From an uncultured Magnetococcales bacterium (GTDB lineage: Bacteria; Pseudomonadota; Magnetococcia; Magnetococcales; Magnetaquicoccaceae), in NCBI GenBank assembly GCA_903913345.1, contig CAIWLA010000575.1, positions 1 through 18,630 of the forward strand: DNA of 18,630 bases, written 5' to 3'. The notes under the pieces are model-generated. The model did not search any database and was not told the origin of the DNA. It worked only from the letters and a program-made list of their open reading frames with translations. The position numbers were made by a program, and so were the translations under genes. Below are positions 2,348 to 18,601 of this stretch, in pieces (position 1 is the first letter of the stretch; the number at the start of each line of letters is the position of its first letter).

Positions 2348-3106
2348 TCACTCTTTTATGCTGATACGGCGACGCTGCAAATAGCCATCGCGCAACGCAA
2401 CGTAGGGATCGATGGCCGATTTGGTCAGATTTTCATACTCGCCCAGATGCAGAGAGGCCGTATTGGTTATCCGATAGGCGGTCAGGCCGGCTCGATACAG
2501 GGTCTCCTTGGGCACATAGGTCAGTGGGTTCAACAGGGTTTCGCCCACCAGTCCGATGCTGTCGCGCAGGTTGGACGGACCCAGAATCGGCCAGACCAGA
2601 TAGAGCGTATCTCCTGCACCATAATGACCCAATGCCACGCCCAGATCATCATGCACCCCTTCCATGCCATACTCTTTCGCCACATCGATAAAGCCCAGCA
2701 GACCGAGGGTGGTATTGATGCCGAAACGACCCAGTTCAACGCCGGATTGGGCCACTTTACCCTGCAGCAGGGCACTGGTCACATAGGTGGGTGTGGCCAG
2801 GTTGTGGAAAACATTTTTCACCCCAACGCGCAGCGGTTCCGGGGCAATAGCGGCATACACGGTGGCAACCGGTTGCAGCAATCCAAAATAGAACAGATCG
2901 TTAAACCGGAAAAAGAGCCGGTTTAACGGTTCCAGGGGGTCTGAAACACCCTCTGCGGGCAGGGCACTCTCCTCCTCCCCCTCGGTGTCCAACCCACTGA
3001 CTCGTGCATGATCGGTTGGTTCCCCCGGCGCACCGTCCGCCGGTGCGGCAGAGGCAAACAATGGAAAACACAGTATCAAAACCATCATGAAGGGGGATTT
3101 TTTCAT
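2348..3106 (-). CDS. mlaA: MlaA (VacJ) outer-membrane phospholipid-removal protein
   Basis: MlaA sits in the outer membrane with a porin and passes mislocalised phospholipids from the outer leaflet to periplasmic MlaC. Family signatures are clear: SDPLEPLNRLFFRFND at 55-70 (with the DPLEPLNR core at 56-63), then FHNLATPTYVTSALLQG, FGINTTLGLLGFIDVA and GVALGHYGAGDTLYLVWPILGPS. At 252 residues it has the normal length. The N-terminus is a signal peptide ending FASA|AP near residue 20, followed by an acidic linker. Unlike E. coli MlaA, I see no lipobox: the only early Cys (C13) is preceded by LIL. The gene diverges from mlaE across 157 bases, consistent with a shared regulatory region for the Mla system. 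Confidence 0.93.
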   Translation of the reverse strand: MKKSPFMMVLILCFPLFASAAPADGAPGEPTDHARVSGLDTEGEEESALPAEGVSDPLEPLNRLFFRFNDLFYFGLLQPVATVYAAIAPEPLRVGVKNVFHNLATPTYVTSALLQGKVAQSGVELGRFGINTTLGLLGFIDVAKEYGMEGVHDDLGVALGHYGAGDTLYLVWPILGPSNLRDSIGLVGETLLNPLTYVPKETLYRAGLTAYRITNTASLHLGEYENLTKSAIDPYVALRDGYLQRRRISIKE

Positions 3107-3263
3107 CTTTGACTCACTTTAAACCCATGCAAAAAAAAGGTCAATCGCTTAAGTTCCTTGCCAACCCGGTCAATAATGCGCGACAATCCACTGCTTTGCA
3201 ACCATCGGATTGTGTTCTGCCCACAGAAGCCTTTCCGTTCACCCTTTCGCTGAATTGGCTCCA

Positions 3264-4034
3264 ATGATTTTTTTTGTCCGGTCTCTTGGTCAACAAGCAA
3301 TTGAATTTGTTTTGGAAACGGGGCGCATGTTCCTGTTTTTGATGGCGGTGTTTGCCAACGCGGTCCGTCCACCCTATCGTCCGGCCAATCTGCTCAAGCA
3401 AATTCACTTTATTGGTATTCGTTCATTGTTTGTCATCGTCCTGACCGCCATCTTTGCAGGCATGGTGCTGGCTTTGCAGGGGCATCATACCTTGACCCGT
3501 TTTGGTGCGGAAGGGTTGCTGGGACCGGCGGTGGCCCTCTCCATCATTCGTGAACTCGGTCCCGTCCTTTCCGGTCTCATGGTGACCGGGCGGGCCGGTT
3601 CGGCACTGGCCGCCGAGTTGGGTATCATGCGGATTCGTGAACAGATTGATGCCCTGGAGGTCATGGGGATTGCCCCCTTGCAATTTTTGGTCACGCCACG
3701 CATCATGGCTGGTCTGGTTGCCCTGCCCATACTCACGGTCATTTTTGATGTCATCGGCATTTTTGGCGGTTATCTGGTGGCCGTGCAACTGCTGAACATG
3801 AGCAGTGGTGTCTATTTGTCCGGGATTGAATCCTCCGTTTTCATGCGCGATATTGTGACCGGGTTGATCAAGGCAGTCAGTTTTGGTCTGATTGTGACCT
3901 GGGTATGTACCTTCAAAGGCTATTATGCCAAGCGGGGTGCCGAAGGGGTCAGTCAGGCCACCACCTCTGCGGTGGTGCTCAGTTCGGTTTTGATTCTGAT
4001 TTGTGACTATTTCATCACCTCCATACTGTTGTAA
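3264..4034 (+). CDS. mlaE: MlaE, MCE-transporter permease
   Basis: This is the inner-membrane permease of the MlaFEDB lipid ABC transporter. The 256-residue protein carries the family core ELGPVLSGLMVTGRAGSA, then MRIREQIDALEVMGI and LVTPRIMAG. It has about five hydrophobic segments (near residues 50-70, 85-110, 145-175, 195-220 and 232-254). The start is taken as the ATG at 3264 because IFFVRSLGQQAIEF matches the usual amphipathic N-terminus. A TTG at 3210 gives 18 more residues of untypical sequence. It is first in the mlaEFDC run, with 15 bases to mlaF. No strong Shine-Dalgarno sequence is visible. Confidence 0.95.
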   Translation: MIFFVRSLGQQAIEFVLETGRMFLFLMAVFANAVRPPYRPANLLKQIHFIGIRSLFVIVLTAIFAGMVLALQGHHTLTRFGAEGLLGPAVALSIIRELGPVLSGLMVTGRAGSALAAELGIMRIREQIDALEVMGIAPLQFLVTPRIMAGLVALPILTVIFDVIGIFGGYLVAVQLLNMSSGVYLSGIESSVFMRDIVTGLIKAVSFGLIVTWVCTFKGYYAKRGAEGVSQATTSAVVLSSVLILICDYFITSILL

Positions 4035-4049
4035 AGAGACGGATTCCGC

Positions 4050-5081
4050 ATGTCCCCAACCATTGTCCAGAATGCCAGTGCCGCCCACCAGGAATCCTTT
4101 CCGATCTCTATCGGCGAACAATTGGTGCAGAGCGGGTGTGTCAGTGCGGGTCAATTGGCCAGGGCACTGGAGGTCCAGACCAAAGAGAAGGGTGTCAGCG
4201 ATCAAAAAGAGGCTCTGATCGGCAAAACCTTGATCGAGTTGGGGTATATCTCCCATCCCGCCCTGCTCAACTGCCTGTTTCATCAATTGACGCGGGAACG
4301 GGTGGCCTACCATCTGGATCCACAGGCCGAGACGATCATCCGTTTTGAGAATGTGGAAAAGACGCTGGATGGTCGCAAGGTGTTGGATCAACTCAACATG
4401 GCCATTCCCGCCAACAAAATTACCGCCATTATTGGCATCAGTGGCGGCGGCAAGAGTGTGACGCTCAAGCACATGGTTGGTCTGATGAAGCCCGATCAGG
4501 GGGAGGTTTGGGTCGGGGGTCAACCCCTGGGAAAACTCTCGGTGCGCGCGCTCAACGGGGTGCGTCGGCGATTCAGTATGCTCTTTCAGGAGGGTGCCCT
4601 GTTCGACTCCCTGAATGTCATGGACAACGTGGCCTTTCCCTTGCGCGAAACCACGGCATTGCCCGAAGCGGAGATTCTGGAGCGGGTGGAAGGGTGTTTG
4701 CAGGAGGTCAATCTGGGTGGCATGGGACACAAATATCCCGACGAGTTGAGTGGTGGAATGCGCAAACGGGCCGCTTTGGCGCGGGCGTTGGTCACTCGAC
4801 CGGAAATTCTCCTCCTGGATGAACCAACGGCCGGGTTGGATCCGATCATCGAAAATGCCATCCACTACTTGATGTGCGATACCTTCATGCGCACCCGCTA
4901 CACCATCGTCTGTATCAGTCATGCGGTGCCGGCCATTTTTGATTGGTGCCACCATGTCGTGGTGTTGCATCGTGGTCGGGTACTGGCCTCCGGTCCATCG
5001 GTGGAGATCCGCAATTCGACGGATCCCACCATCAAACAGTTTATTAGCGGTGATCTGGATGGTCCCATCCATGTCATCTGA
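4050..5081 (+). CDS. mlaF: MlaF ATPase with extra N-terminal GspE_N/MshEN-like domain
   Basis: This is the ATP-binding subunit that drives MlaFEDB lipid transport at the inner membrane. The ABC domain spans about 96-343: Walker A GISGGGKS at 129-136, Q-loop in SMLFQEGALFDSL, signature ELSGGMRKRAALA, Walker B ILLLDEPTAGLDP and the switch His in CISHAV. Total length is 343 residues against roughly 270 for a typical MlaF. The excess is an N-terminal domain with two 24-residue motifs, at 20-43 (IGEQLVQSG...LARALEVQ) and 56-79 (IGKTLIELG...LLNCLFHQ). Both keep the G, L, G, L, L and Q positions of GspE_N/MshEN domains known from type II secretion and pilus ATPases. A single ATG at 4050 starts the fused frame, and no internal start with a clear ribosome-binding site precedes the ABC part. 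No mlaB (STAS partner) gene is found nearby. Confidence 0.95.
   Translation: MSPTIVQNASAAHQESFPISIGEQLVQSGCVSAGQLARALEVQTKEKGVSDQKEALIGKTLIELGYISHPALLNCLFHQLTRERVAYHLDPQAETIIRFENVEKTLDGRKVLDQLNMAIPANKITAIIGISGGGKSVTLKHMVGLMKPDQGEVWVGGQPLGKLSVRALNGVRRRFSMLFQEGALFDSLNVMDNVAFPLRETTALPEAEILERVEGCLQEVNLGGMGHKYPDELSGGMRKRAALARALVTRPEILLLDEPTAGLDPIIENAIHYLMCDTFMRTRYTIVCISHAVPAIFDWCHHVVVLHRGRVLASGPSVEIRNSTDPTIKQFISGDLDGPIHVI
4107..4286 (+). other. GspE_N/MshEN-like tandem motif region inside mlaF
   Basis: These codons encode residues 20-79 of the MlaF fusion. Aligning the two 24-residue blocks by eye shows identical anchors at positions 3 (G), 6 (L), 10 (G), 17 (L), 21 (L) and 24 (Q). Position 1, Arg in c-di-GMP-binding MshEN domains, is Ser in the first copy and Leu in the second. 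The spacer is 12 residues and not the usual 5. The fold assignment is fairly likely; nucleotide binding is doubtful. Confidence 0.65.
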
Positions 5082-5105
5082 ACCCAGTCGCCGCGAGGAG
5101 AGGAG

Positions 5106-5555
5106 ATGAAGAGCATCAAGTTGGAACTTATGGTGGGTCTGTTTGTCTTGGCCGGTCTGCTGGCATTGGCGTGGCTCTCCATCAAGCTGGCCAGAATGGA
5201 ACTGGTCGTCGGGGATCATGTGCCGATGTATGCCAATTTTTCCTCCGTTTCCGGACTCAAAACGGGGGCAGCGGTGGAAATCGCGGGGGTGGAGGTGGGT
5301 CGTGTGGATGCCATTACCCTGAACACAACCGACTATGAAGCGCGGGTTCGGATGCAAATCAGGCCCGACATTCCCATCCAGGAGGATGCCATTGCCTTGG
5401 TGCGAACAAAGGGAATGATCGGTGATCGTTATATCATCATCAGTCCAGGGGGGTCACAAACCCTTTTGAAGGCCGATGGTCTCCTCCTCCATACCGAGCC
5501 GGCCATCAACTTTGAAGAGTTGATCAGTCAGTTTATTCACGGTTCTGTCAAATAG
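5106..5555 (+). CDS. mlaD: MlaD, MCE-domain lipid-binding protein
   Basis: MlaD forms a hexameric ring anchored in the inner membrane that channels lipids between MlaE and MlaC. The 149-residue protein has one N-terminal transmembrane helix (about 8-28) and a single MCE domain at about 38-118. Family features are ANFSSVSGLKTGAAVEIAGV, VGRVDAITL and the loop RTKGMIGDRYIIISPGG. It is shorter than E. coli MlaD (about 180 residues), mainly in the C-terminal tail. A strong ribosome-binding site (GAGGAGAGGAG) lies directly before the ATG, 24 bases after mlaF. Confidence 0.95.
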   Translation: MKSIKLELMVGLFVLAGLLALAWLSIKLARMELVVGDHVPMYANFSSVSGLKTGAAVEIAGVEVGRVDAITLNTTDYEARVRMQIRPDIPIQEDAIALVRTKGMIGDRYIIISPGGSQTLLKADGLLLHTEPAINFEELISQFIHGSVK

Positions 5556-5576
5556 TGTACGCAAGGACGTTGCCTC

Positions 5577-6209
5577 ATGGTTACCATACGCTCTCTCCCG
5601 TTTCGTGGGTTCTGGTTTTTGCTGGTATTCGGCGTTGGACTGTTGGGGGGTGCCACTCCCCTCCAGGCCGGGCCTCTGTCACAGATGGAAAATGTTCTCC
5701 AGAGGGTCTTGCTCATTTTGCGGGATCCTGCCCTGAGCACATCGGAAAAACAGACGGAACGCCGGGAAAAATTGCGCGCCATTGTCTATGCCGAGTTTGA
5801 CTTTCATACCATGTCGCAAGGGGCCGTGGGACCGAAGTGGCGCACATTTTCCGCTGCCCAACAGGCGCGTTTTATCGATCTCTTTGAACGCCTGCTCGAA
5901 AACACCTACATGAACAGCATCGAACGCTACAAAAGCGAGGAGGTGCGGTTTACCAAAGAGTTGGTGCAGTCCAACACGGTCACCCGTGTCGACAGCGTGG
6001 TGGTGAGCAAAGGGACGGAATTCAAGGTTTCCTACCAGTTGATCCTGAAAGATCAAGCCTGGAAGGTGATGGATGTCATCATCGAAGGGGTCAGTGTCGT
6101 GGCCAATTATCGGGCACAGTTCAAGCATTTGCTGCAAAAAGACGACGCGGAGGGGATCGACGCCATGCTGTCCACGCTGGAAAGTTCGGTCAACCGGAGC
6201 GAAAAGTAG
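5577..6209 (+). CDS. mlaC: MlaC, periplasmic phospholipid shuttle
   Basis: MlaC carries phospholipids across the periplasm between MlaA and MlaD. It is 210 residues long. A signal peptide occupies 1-31 (hydrophobic 12-26, cut after LQA), and the mature part has the family features FDFHTMSQGAVG, FIDLFERLLENTYM, VRFTKE and the C-terminal WKVMDVIIEGVSVVANYRAQF. Start at 5577: AAGGA lies about 11 bases upstream. The gene closes the mlaEFDC run; a candidate terminator follows. Confidence 0.94.
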   Translation: MVTIRSLPFRGFWFLLVFGVGLLGGATPLQAGPLSQMENVLQRVLLILRDPALSTSEKQTERREKLRAIVYAEFDFHTMSQGAVGPKWRTFSAAQQARFIDLFERLLENTYMNSIERYKSEEVRFTKELVQSNTVTRVDSVVVSKGTEFKVSYQLILKDQAWKVMDVIIEGVSVVANYRAQFKHLLQKDDAEGIDAMLSTLESSVNRSEK

Positions 6210-6244: not shown

Positions 6245-6312
6245 TTTCGCGTTTCTTTCGTCATAAGCCTTGATTGTTCTGACGCAAACAGATGGATGGT
6301 AAAGGAACCGTG

Positions 6313-7323
6313 ATGGAGCAGGCAGCGGAAAGAACCCCAGGCAGGCAGCTTTTGTTGCCATTTGACGGTGATACAAACAGAGCGGTTCTCGCGCTTCGTG
6401 TCGTTCCACCAGGTGCTCCGTTGCAGGAAGTCCAACCGCCATCTGAACCTGTAACAAAAGGTTTTCAACGACAATACGAACATAAGAATGGGTGCCTGTA
6501 TCAGGGGGATTCTCTCGCCTGGCTGGCATCGCTCGATGAAGCCAGCGTGGATCTTGTGTTTGCTGACCCACCCTATAACATTAAAAAAGCAGATTGGGAT
6601 AATTTCGATACCCAGGAAAAATACATTGAGTGGTCTATTCAGTGGATCAAACACGCTTCGCGGGTGTTGAAGAATACCGGTTCTTTATATGTGTGCGGAT
6701 TTTCAGAAATACTGGCTGATTTGAAACACCCTGCTTCAACCTATTTCAAGGGTTGCCGATGGCTTGTGTGGCATTATAAAAACAAGGCAAATCTAGGCAA
6801 CGATTGGGGACGATCACACGAGAGTATCATTCATTTTCGAAAATCGGATGCCTTCAGGCTGAATATGGATGATGTGCGTATCCCTTACGGGGCACACACC
6901 TTGAAATATCCCTCTCATCCACAGGCGGAGACGAGTGCTTATGGAAAGGGCGTTCAGAAACAACGCGATAACTGGATGCCACATTCAAAAGGGGCAAAAC
7001 CAAAGGATGTGATCGATATTCCGACAACATGCAACGGCATGGGCGAAAAGACACCACATCCTACGCAAAAACCCGAAGAGTTGCTGCGCAAGTTTGTCCT
7101 GGCTTCATCGAATGAAGGCGAACTGGTCATCGACCCGTTCTCTGGATCAGGAACGACAATCGTTGTTGCAGAGCAGTTGAATCGCCGCTGGATGGCCTGC
7201 GATCTGGACCAGCAGTACAACCAGTGGGCAATCAAGCGGTTGGAAAACGTTCGGCGCATGACGAAGGATGAATGGATAGCCACTGACCGCAAAACAGCAG
7301 AACGAAGGGAATCCATCCGATGA
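6313..7323 (+). CDS. Beta-class DNA N6-adenine/N4-cytosine methyltransferase
   Basis: This is an AdoMet-dependent DNA amino-methyltransferase, here probably the modification half of a type II restriction-modification system. The catalytic motif IV DPPYN is at 85-89 and the AdoMet-binding motif I FSGSGTT at 276-282. The order IV before I defines the beta class. HPTQKPEELL precedes motif I, as in DpnIIB and HinfI type enzymes. The sequence alone does not tell the recognition site or whether A or C is modified. The ATG at 6313 is preferred because AAGGA lies 6 bases upstream; an ATG at 6292 would add 7 residues without a ribosome-binding site. The stop overlaps the restriction gene start as ATGA. 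Codons are visibly AT-richer than in the flanking mla and TPR genes, suggesting horizontal transfer. Confidence 0.92.
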   Translation: MEQAAERTPGRQLLLPFDGDTNRAVLALRVVPPGAPLQEVQPPSEPVTKGFQRQYEHKNGCLYQGDSLAWLASLDEASVDLVFADPPYNIKKADWDNFDTQEKYIEWSIQWIKHASRVLKNTGSLYVCGFSEILADLKHPASTYFKGCRWLVWHYKNKANLGNDWGRSHESIIHFRKSDAFRLNMDDVRIPYGAHTLKYPSHPQAETSAYGKGVQKQRDNWMPHSKGAKPKDVIDIPTTCNGMGEKTPHPTQKPEELLRKFVLASSNEGELVIDPFSGSGTTIVVAEQLNRRWMACDLDQQYNQWAIKRLENVRRMTKDEWIATDRKTAERRESIR

Positions 7324-7511
7324 ATCTGGCTGACTTGATCCTTCATGCGACGACCAAGGAACGGTTTCGCGCCGTTGAGAGTTATATATCTTTTTGTGCG
7401 CGTTATTTGGAATATGTCGATACAGGACTACAGGCACGCATTGTATCACAAAACGAAAGTCACTATCAGTTTTTCCAATACAGGGCAGAGGGTAGTTTCA
7501 ATATCACGCGC

Positions 7512-7520
7512 CCCTTGAAT
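7512..7520. repeat. Left target-site duplication CCCTTGAAT
   Basis: Nine bases immediately before the element are repeated exactly at 7674-7682 immediately after it. They encode Pro-Leu-Asn in the interrupted gene. Confidence 0.88.
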
Positions 7521-7673
7521 TGGGGTGTCCAAATTGGCCAAAATCATGTGCCCGGAAAGTGGACCCTGCAAAACGCAGAAAACGTGCTGTAAAATAACAA
7601 GATACGGTGATTTTTATGGTGCCAAAAACCGGGCAAAAAAATCAGGCCGAAAGGTGCCTTTTTGGACACCCCA
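7521..7673. mobile_element. 153-bp MITE-like element with 13-bp terminal inverted repeats
   Basis: The ends are TGGGGTGTCCAAA (7521-7533) and its exact complement (7661-7673). After two mismatches the inverted match continues for GGC. The element is flanked by the 9-bp direct repeat CCCTTGAAT. It is too short for a transposase, so it must have been moved in trans by an insertion sequence with similar ends, which I cannot name. A 9-bp duplication occurs in several families. It carries a stop codon in the frame of the host gene. Confidence 0.85.
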
Positions 7674-7682
7674 CCCTTGAAT
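7674..7682. repeat. Right target-site duplication CCCTTGAAT
   Basis: This is an exact copy of 7512-7520, directly after the right inverted repeat. The host reading frame resumes through it and into TCA at 7683. Confidence 0.88.
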
Positions 7683-8480
7683 TCACGTCTGATGTACAAT
7701 GCTGAAAATTATGACGAGGCCGCACAGATCTTTGTTTTGACGCTGGAGATGTTGCGAGATGGTCATCAGCCATCCAATGATTTGCGAGAAAACGTGATTC
7801 GTATCATTTACACGATTCAGCAATCCATTGGTGCCGCATTGGATGGATTGCCTGCCGGTCAATCCAATCAAGCCAGAAAAGTCAATGGGGATTTATTCGA
7901 ACGACTGATTCGTTTGCTGATTATTTTTCTCCGCATCGATTGTGTGTCAGGAACCATGCAAGTTCCTGTGAAAGATTTTGATGGAACAGAACTTTTCAAG
8001 TCGAGTTATCAACACGATTTATTATTAAGCAAGAATGATGAATTAAAAGTGATTGGCTCTGTCAAAACGTCCAGCAAAGACAGAATTGACAAAGTTTTTA
8101 TGGATAAGTTTCTTTATAATCGTCTGACGGATACCGCTCTGCCGCATATTGCTGTTTTTCTGAATGATGTACAGAGAAAAAACACGAGACAAGAAAATGA
8201 GTACGGAGTCAGCTCAACCTTTTTGCCGGGACATTTCAAGGCTTACACAGTCAAACTGAATCCATTGGACGGCGTATATTATTGCGACATTCGACCCAAC
8301 ATGGTTGAGGATATTTTTTTATCCAACCACATCAAAACGATAGATCATTTATTCTATTCCGACCTCTGGGAACTGCTGGATCGACCAGGGCAAACCTTGA
8401 AAGATGTCGCCATAAAGTAAAGAAGGGGATCGGTTCCCAGTCAACGGCATGTTCTTTCTTCACCGAAATTTTTGAATGTC

Positions 8481-17818: not shown

Positions 17819-18601
17819 TCATCCATCACTTTTTTGACTGTGCGAATGGTTGGCGTAGGTCGGCCAGTCGGGGAGATAGGCGTCCGCCTGGTTGCCCCAG
17901 GTGATCCAGCCCGGTTGCGAGCCACGGGCAAACAGTTCGAGAAAGGGACCGGGAGAGCAGCTTTCGATAATGGTGTAGAGTTCATCCGGTTTGCGGGAGT
18001 GTTCCCGTTTCATCGATCGGATGATGTTGACCTGGCGGCGTCCTGGGGCGAGGGTGCGGGCTGCCTTGCCTCGGGTGCCAAACAGGATCAACTCGGTGGT
18101 ATTGCGAAAATAAAAACCAACGCCCCGTCCGTCGGGTCCACCGTCTTTGCGCACCTTGTGCCAGACCAGGTTGGCCTTGTAGACAAACCCCCAGGCGGCC
18201 AGCACCTGCAACCCTTCCGGCAACAGGGCATTGGGCACCCACAGGTACAGATGGGCGGTCGGTTCCACCATCTCCGCCACCGGCAGCGCGAGAATATCGG
18301 CCAATGAGAGGGTATCATAACGGTTCAGCCGCTTGTGTTCCGGGGCCATTTTGCCCGTGCGGTTCTGGAACTGCCAGGGTGGATCGGCCAATACCGTGCG
18401 GAACAATTGGCCATCCAGCCGCGCCCGCAAATCGGCGGCTGTTTCGGCCTTTTTCGTGGCGGGTCCAGGGGGATCATCCCCCTGGTGGGGTCCAGGGGCT
18501 GACGCCCCTGGTGGGGTTCGGGGCAACGCCCCGCTGGACGAAACGATGATCAAAGCCGTCTCATCTGTGCTCTGCCCGGACCGGATTGGGAGTGCTGCCA
18601 T
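17819..18601 (-). CDS. MT-A70 family DNA N6-adenine methyltransferase
   Basis: MT-A70-type enzymes methylate adenine N6 in DNA or RNA. Bacterial copies often occur in phage and mobile regions. Residues about 66-245 carry the family pattern: TVLADPPW (catalytic DPPW at 73-76), MAPEHKRLNRYDTLSLADI, HLYLWVPNALLPEGLQVLAAW, FRNTTELILFGTRG, KREHSRKPDELYTIIE and LFARGSQPGWITWGNQ. With the ATG at 18601 the protein is 260 residues, but residues 23-46 are encoded by three tandem hairpin repeats. That ATG also shares bases with a better plus-strand start at 18600. The true start may be a TTG downstream (for instance near residue 59 or 66). An in-frame TGA at 18619-18617 shows the gene does not extend beyond the window. 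Confidence 0.88.
   Translation of the reverse strand: MAALPIRSGQSTDETALIIVSSSGALPRTPPGASAPGPHQGDDPPGPATKKAETAADLRARLDGQLFRTVLADPPWQFQNRTGKMAPEHKRLNRYDTLSLADILALPVAEMVEPTAHLYLWVPNALLPEGLQVLAAWGFVYKANLVWHKVRKDGGPDGRGVGFYFRNTTELILFGTRGKAARTLAPGRRQVNIIRSMKREHSRKPDELYTIIESCSPGPFLELFARGSQPGWITWGNQADAYLPDWPTYANHSHSQKSDG
18465..18533. repeat. Cluster of three tandem hairpin repeats
   Basis: Three palindromes occur in a row, separated by TGGGGT or TGGGGTT. The first, 18465-18485, has arms CCAGGGGGAT and ATCCCCCTGG around one base. The second, 18492-18511, has CCAGGGGC and GCCCCTGG with loop TGAC. The third, 18519-18533, has CGGGGC and GCCCCG with loop AAC. The first is close to 145-165, and the third to 85-97 and 13686-13702. 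The cluster lies between the MT-A70 catalytic region and the candidate plus-strand start at 18600. Confidence 0.75.

Follow-up and report, generated by a model that had tools for sequence, protein, structure and literature searches.

Fusion of an MshEN_N-like helical domain to the Mla transport ATPase MlaF in the class Magnetococcia

Results

The DNA analyzed here over its whole length, 18,630 nucleotides of contig CAIWLA010000575.1 from an uncultured Magnetococcales bacterium (hereafter the window; contig C575 of genome G000, an assembly of 3.63 Mb in 729 contigs), encodes an Mla phospholipid transporter whose ATPase, MlaF, carries an additional N-terminal domain, the subject of this report. 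Pfam matches agree with the initial annotation that mlaE, mlaF, mlaD, and mlaC are contiguous; they lie head to tail on the forward strand at about 3264 to 6209, and mlaA, encoding the outer-membrane lipoprotein, can be added on the reverse strand (2348 to 3106; PF04333, E = 9e-62), divergent from mlaE. The frame of the mlaE permease gene (3264 to 4034; PF02405, E = 1.8e-82) is open from a TTG at 3210, with the ATG at 3264 being the more likely start. It is followed by mlaF (4050 to 5081; 343 amino acids), mlaD (5106 to 5555; PF02470, E = 1.6e-20; 149 amino acids with a single MlaD/MCE match), and the gene for the periplasmic lipid chaperone, mlaC (5577 to 6209; PF05494, E = 6.9e-46). The nearest named relatives of this MlaF are from Magnetococcales bacteria, and mlaE, mlaD, and mlaC also accompany mlaF in 38 other main-type Magnetococcia loci, wherever the contig extends.

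The ATP-binding cassette (ABC) nucleotide-binding domain is complete from residue ~96 (4335 to 5078), and residues 112 to 261 match ABC_tran (PF00005) at E = 3.1e-30. The key residues of Walker A (129 to 136; G129, G134, K135, and S136), the signature LSGGM (233 to 237), D257 and E258 of Walker B, and H291 are invariant in 19 sequences. MlaF chains are among the closest solved relatives of this part; the best solved match, 8fed (8.9e-53), is labeled merely as an ABC transporter ATP-binding protein.

Ahead of the ABC domain lies a domain of the MshEN_N type (the GSPII N-subdomain) at about residues 18 to 82 (4101 to 4295), joined by a linker (residues 80 to 95; 4287 to 4334) that includes E83 and Y87. 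Rereading the sequence bore out the two 24-residue motifs initially annotated at residues 20 to 43 (4107 to 4178) and 56 to 79 (4215 to 4286): both carry G3, L6, G10, L17, L21, and Q24, the spacer between them is 12 residues, and Arg starts neither. Position 1 is Ser in motif I, outside the extended consensus for this position, and Leu in motif II, within it; position 2 is Ile rather than Leu in both. The tandem motif is not a chance occurrence, since a relaxed version was found in 0 of 20,000 shuffles of the protein and in no other open reading frame (ORF) of the window of at least 60 amino acids. Of the 36 fused proteins, 22 share C30 and 24 share C75, two cysteines at motif positions 11 and 20, one in each motif.

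The fold and homology of the domain are well supported. A profile built from 19 fused N-termini matched MshE (PDB 5htl) at 1.2e-8, and one from 36 diverse fused N-termini did so at 1.9e-12; the latter search also gave PilF at 2.7e-22 summed over four stretches, of which the best single one reached 5.5e-7. An AlphaFold model of the N-domain has helices at residues 21 to 27, 33 to 46, 57 to 63, and 69 to 89, forming a predicted four-helix bundle that matched MshEN_N in a structural comparison covering 26 chains. The full-length model (19 close sequences) was poor, with a mean predicted local distance difference test score of 52.3, and was set aside; it agrees on the borders of N-domain helices 1 to 3 but ends helix 4 at residue 82, not 89. 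The GspE_N/MshEN-like fusion proposed initially is thus upheld in fold and homology, although PF05157 itself gave no match in the window MlaF at E <= 1, nor in 19 fused members (the window's own and those of 18 relatives) when E <= 10 was allowed and HMMER filters were on. This is because PF05157 covers the other subdomain: in two large ORFs of the window genome (on contigs C48 and C706), it lies directly downstream of a stretch resembling the MlaF domain. The MlaF domain is the N-terminal helical subdomain only, without MshEN_C, and the fusion combines known parts in a new domain architecture.

In a survey of 48 genomes from 14 families of the Magnetococcia, a class of magnetotactic bacteria (MlaF threshold, E <= 1e-40), main-type MlaF was found in 39 genomes and was fused to MshEN_N in 36 of them, spanning 12 families. 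The alignment of fused proteins comprises 36 rows from 35 genomes, one of which (G047) contributes two copies; in the 36th genome (G034), the gene is split over two contigs. Three MlaF proteins (G018, G040, and G046) lack the domain; each begins close to or inside the linker, whose Glu and Tyr are retained, and is encoded at a locus with mlaA, mlaE, mlaD, and mlaC. No MlaF was found at the threshold in nine genomes (G009, G011, G012, G017, G020, G024, and G037 to G039), of which G020 does have MlaE. Family f11 has MlaF in G018 alone, and family f13 has no Mla; the three f13 genomes (G037 to G039), all 99% complete, also had no MlaE at E <= 1e-10. Genome G047 has two fused mla loci, L219 (G047:C400) and L216 (G047:C118), one of which branches with family f2 beside G003 and may reflect assembly contamination or transfer.

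As outgroups, we took the 61 loci not named Magnetococcales among the best 80 MlaF loci of the genome collection; none of these MlaEF loci had an MshEN_N domain at E < 1. A tree of the ATPase domain with 13 of the 61 outgroups united the 39 Magnetococcia rows in a single group (98/99) and calls for three changes, which can be read as a single gain plus two losses; the order in which several families, and G018, branch is poorly fixed. The simplest account is a single acquisition of the domain on the stem lineage of the class. A scan of 398 genomes of the phylum, including the 48 Magnetococcia, gave MlaF-sized full-model matches only in Magnetococcia among the matches listed (down to E = 2.5e-10), the other listed matches falling mostly in longer frames and in a few cases in short or broken frames. 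One N-terminal query against a protein database returned 19 ABC proteins; five carry an organism name, in each case Magnetococcus, Magnetaquicoccus, or Magnetococcales. A second returned another ABC protein of Magnetococcales together with five DUF4388 proteins, and a third returned one nucleotidyltransferase (E = 0.0095).

The domain might also be a neutral leftover of an ancient fusion event, with no present function. Such a relic would fit the losses (two or more) in which the operon stayed intact and the degeneration seen in G013 and, at motif II Gln24, in family f14. However, G3, L6, G10, L17, and L21 of motif II are each kept in 35 or 36 of the 36 copies across the 12 families, even though the N-termini are only 24 to 69% identical to that of the window, and the domain has been retained in 36 of 39 genomes; we consider a relic highly improbable.

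The absence of a STAS gene from the locus, as initially annotated, was confirmed: a STAS profile picked up no such ORF, either in the window or at the other 38 main-type loci of Magnetococcia (flanks to ~5 kb, fewer at contig ends), including the three loci without the domain. Each of eight known STAS proteins was recovered when left out of the profile, with E. coli MlaB at 5.5e-7. A distant STAS gene hidden beside mla was also considered and was not found with the leave-one-out profiles, whose best nonseed ORF (0.057, at outgroup locus L085) appeared in one of eight runs. The same profile found no STAS neighbor at any of the 61 outgroup MlaEF loci (flanks to 6 kb). These profile searches backed a class-wide list of STAS matches that extended down to about 7.6e-10. 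Elsewhere in the window genome, STAS genes are present (10 PF13466 matches at E <= 1, seven of them above its cutoff); no match in the 48 Magnetococcia genomes passed the MlaB family cutoff, a narrow model that passes in 1 of 14 control genomes.

The initial annotation suggested that the extra domain may replace MlaB, in which case it would stand in as a stabilizing lid on the ATPase: no main-type locus has a STAS ORF, and the unfused second MlaEF pair of G016 does have such a neighbor. Loci without MlaB are, however, equally the rule where the domain is missing (0 of 61 outgroups and 0 of 3 domain-less loci have a STAS neighbor), and parts of PMC10665443 describe MlaB as sparse and MlaEFD as the likely ancestral core, with MlaB outside it. 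The domain is also on the N-terminus, whereas MlaB centers on the helical subdomain, as described in portions of PMC7367683. Since mlaB is missing with or without the fusion, we rejected replacement as very unlikely. The lack of MlaB beside mlaEF is the background state here, and the domain therefore looks like an addition rather than a substitute.

Additional MlaE-like genes occur in these genomes. In G016, a STAS ORF (locus L224, G016:C126, 409 to 813, forward strand) lies upstream of the second, unfused mlaE-mlaF pair, an MlaB-like arrangement within Magnetococcia. The window genome has a second MlaE-like permease (PF02405, 1.1e-26) adjoining an ABC protein (PF00005, 1.1e-18) at locus L013 (G000:C77, 762 to 1493 and 1486 to 2253, reverse strand). 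This ABC protein has the signature LTVEQ, Asn rather than Glu after Walker B, and no clear H-loop His, and it is probably a dead ATPase. Second, weaker MlaE matches were seen in several relatives.

Whether the domain binds a ligand can be approached through the residues that serve in homologs. MshE engages each guanine of cyclic di-GMP (c-di-GMP) with one motif, through contacts at positions 1, 2, 3, 17, 21, and 24, and the isolated N-subdomain (residues 1 to 62) binds c-di-GMP at 0.35 uM, as given in sections of PMC5013675. When R, K, or L is accepted at position 1 and hydrophobic substitutes at positions 2, 17, and 21, the window MlaF has 11 of 12 key positions, versus 8 of 12 for the nonbinding GSPII-A. 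Gly3 is present in both motifs in 35 of 36 copies; 28 copies retain Gln24 in motif I, and 23 retain it in motif II. All five contact positions besides position 1 are intact in both motifs in 16 of 36 copies (twelve of the window's family, f1, plus G014, G006, G001, and G019, the last with Arg at position 1 of motif I); at least one is lost in the other 20, and Gln24 of motif II is lost in 7 of 7 rows of family f14, to which two of the three domain-less genomes also belong. Because the contact residues are fully kept mostly in f1 and Gln24 of motif II is lost throughout f14, a working ligand site is plausible in f1 and seems eroded elsewhere. With 20 GGDEF matches at E <= 1e-10 in the window genome, c-di-GMP is likely present in the host cell.

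The missing Arg and the 12-residue spacer had initially been read as arguing against classical c-di-GMP binding, which was overdrawn: according to the text available from PMC11731258, Thermus thermophilus PilF GSPII-B binds c-di-GMP at 6 nM with Lys and Leu replacing both position-1 Arg residues, motif II starts with Leu in 34 of 36 fused copies, and the spacer ranges from 6 to 12 residues among them, compared with the 5 residues specified for MshEN_N. Several points nevertheless weigh against a bound c-di-GMP. Gln24 of motif I is kept no better than an exposed Gln at position 16 in the 36-row alignment. Portions of PMC12002112 report that helix capping or subdomain contacts can block even a perfect motif and that a partly restored fragment of PilF-A (GSPII-A), with Ser1 and Ala3 in motif II, did not bind; the doubt about c-di-GMP binding therefore stays.

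In a second explanation, the domain is a ligand-free docking or dimerization module, as in the nonbinding N-domain of a type II secretion ATPase, that tethers MlaF to a partner or a second MlaF and steadies the complex. The homolog XpsE is reported to have lost c-di-GMP binding (in part of PMC5013675), and 20 of 36 copies have lost a contact residue beyond position 1. The long C-terminal extension (E. coli handshake residues 247 to 269) is absent from the window MlaF; past the E. coli D245 column, all 36 fused proteins have 10 residues, compared with 24 in E. coli, where the tail docks at the MlaF-MlaB interface and forced dimerization largely rescues MlaF without the extension (both from portions of PMC7367683). 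The 10-residue tail is, however, shared by the three domain-less proteins and by 24 of the 61 unfused outgroups (the range is 7 to 24 residues in 60 of the 61, the remaining one being a longer frame), so that the fusion implies no special need for a dimerizer, and 35 of 36 copies keep the ligand-contact Gly3 in both motifs. We regard a pure docking role as possible but rather doubtful.

Outside the mla genes, an N6/N4 DNA methylase gene (PF01555, 5e-47) begins 82 bases past the mlaC stop and, with two ORFs that have no Pfam match (7320 to 7592 and 7662 to 8420), possibly forms a restriction-modification set (6292 to 8420, forward strand). An MT-A70 family methylase (PF05063, 4.4e-31) lies at 17819 to 18601 on the reverse strand.

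Discussion

Our results place a predicted sensor-type fold on the ATPase of the phospholipid transporter Mla (MlaEFD, together with MlaC and MlaA), and we tentatively favor a regulatory role for this MshEN_N domain, with a small ligand, for which c-di-GMP is the leading candidate, occupying a groove between motifs I and II. Helix 4 of the N-domain model continues unbroken through E83-R84-x-x-Y87 to residue 89, six residues ahead of the ABC domain; E83 is present in 36 of 36 and Y87 in 34 of 36 fused proteins, and the same Glu and Tyr occur in the three proteins without the domain. Helix 4, which also bears Gln79 of the groove, would lie on the ATPase side and could act as the transmission element, relaying movement or occupancy of the groove. 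Ligand binding would shift this helix and its conserved ERxxY extension, thereby altering how the MlaF subunits engage each other or MlaE. The fusion and its predicted fold, homology, distribution, and losses are established here, whereas the ligand, the direction of control, and the relay through the helix are inferred. A possible link between lipid transport and a signal, raised in the initial annotation, is upheld as a possibility, with more room for c-di-GMP than had been allowed there.

In its most specific form, this would make the MlaF of Magnetococcia a c-di-GMP-gated ABC ATPase, in which the messenger on the fused domain switches inter-membrane phospholipid traffic on or off; this is conceivable, with considerable doubt. 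If it is true, motile and sessile states would differ in outer-membrane lipid turnover. The data suggest that lipid traffic in Magnetococcia may be wired directly to a c-di-GMP signal. According to PMC7367683, Mla regulation has yet to be explained even for E. coli, and control of MlaB itself is unclear there. We found no published MlaF-MshEN combination in the open-licence literature and, by title, no report of a fusion among 12 papers on MlaF and c-di-GMP; MshEN was absent from the 15 listed of 2,781 matches to any two of MshEN, ABC transporter, and nucleotide-binding domain. A class-wide fusion of a sensor fold to MlaF, the first found in the searches made, would directly link a cytoplasmic signal to inter-membrane lipid transport, and naturally occurring variants, in which the site is well preserved, partly eroded, or deleted, offer a ready experiment.

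Compared with known MlaF proteins (PDB 6xbd and 6xgy; Pseudomonas aeruginosa 7ch8), that of the window is likewise the ABC ATPase of an mlaE/D/C operon with the LSGGM signature, whose Met has been noted for Mla/TGD systems (portions of PMC7367683), but it differs in its extra N-terminal domain, its short C-terminal extension, and the lack of mlaB in the locus. The gene order also differs: mlaE precedes mlaF and mlaA adjoins, whereas the order in E. coli K-12 is mlaF-E-D-C-B. The E-F-D(-C) arrangement with no STAS gene resembles MlaB-less MlaEFD systems (Geobacter-type and other outgroup loci, and Veillonella, as described in part of PMC10665443); the 10-residue MlaF tail is shared with many of these outgroups, the MshEN_N domain with none.

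The domain itself resembles the MshEN_N or GSPII N-subdomain of Vibrio cholerae MshE (5htl) and PilF GSPII-B (8pfa and 9gl5) in its tandem 24-residue motifs, its predicted four-helix bundle, and, in both motifs, G3, hydrophobic residues at positions 2, 17, and 21, and Gln24; Leu1 of motif II is as in PilF GSPII-B. Unlike these proteins, it has Ser at position 1 of motif I, a longer spacer, and no MshEN_C subdomain, and it is carried by an ABC ATPase rather than a secretion or pilus ATPase, a fusion that would extend MshEN domains to ABC transporters.
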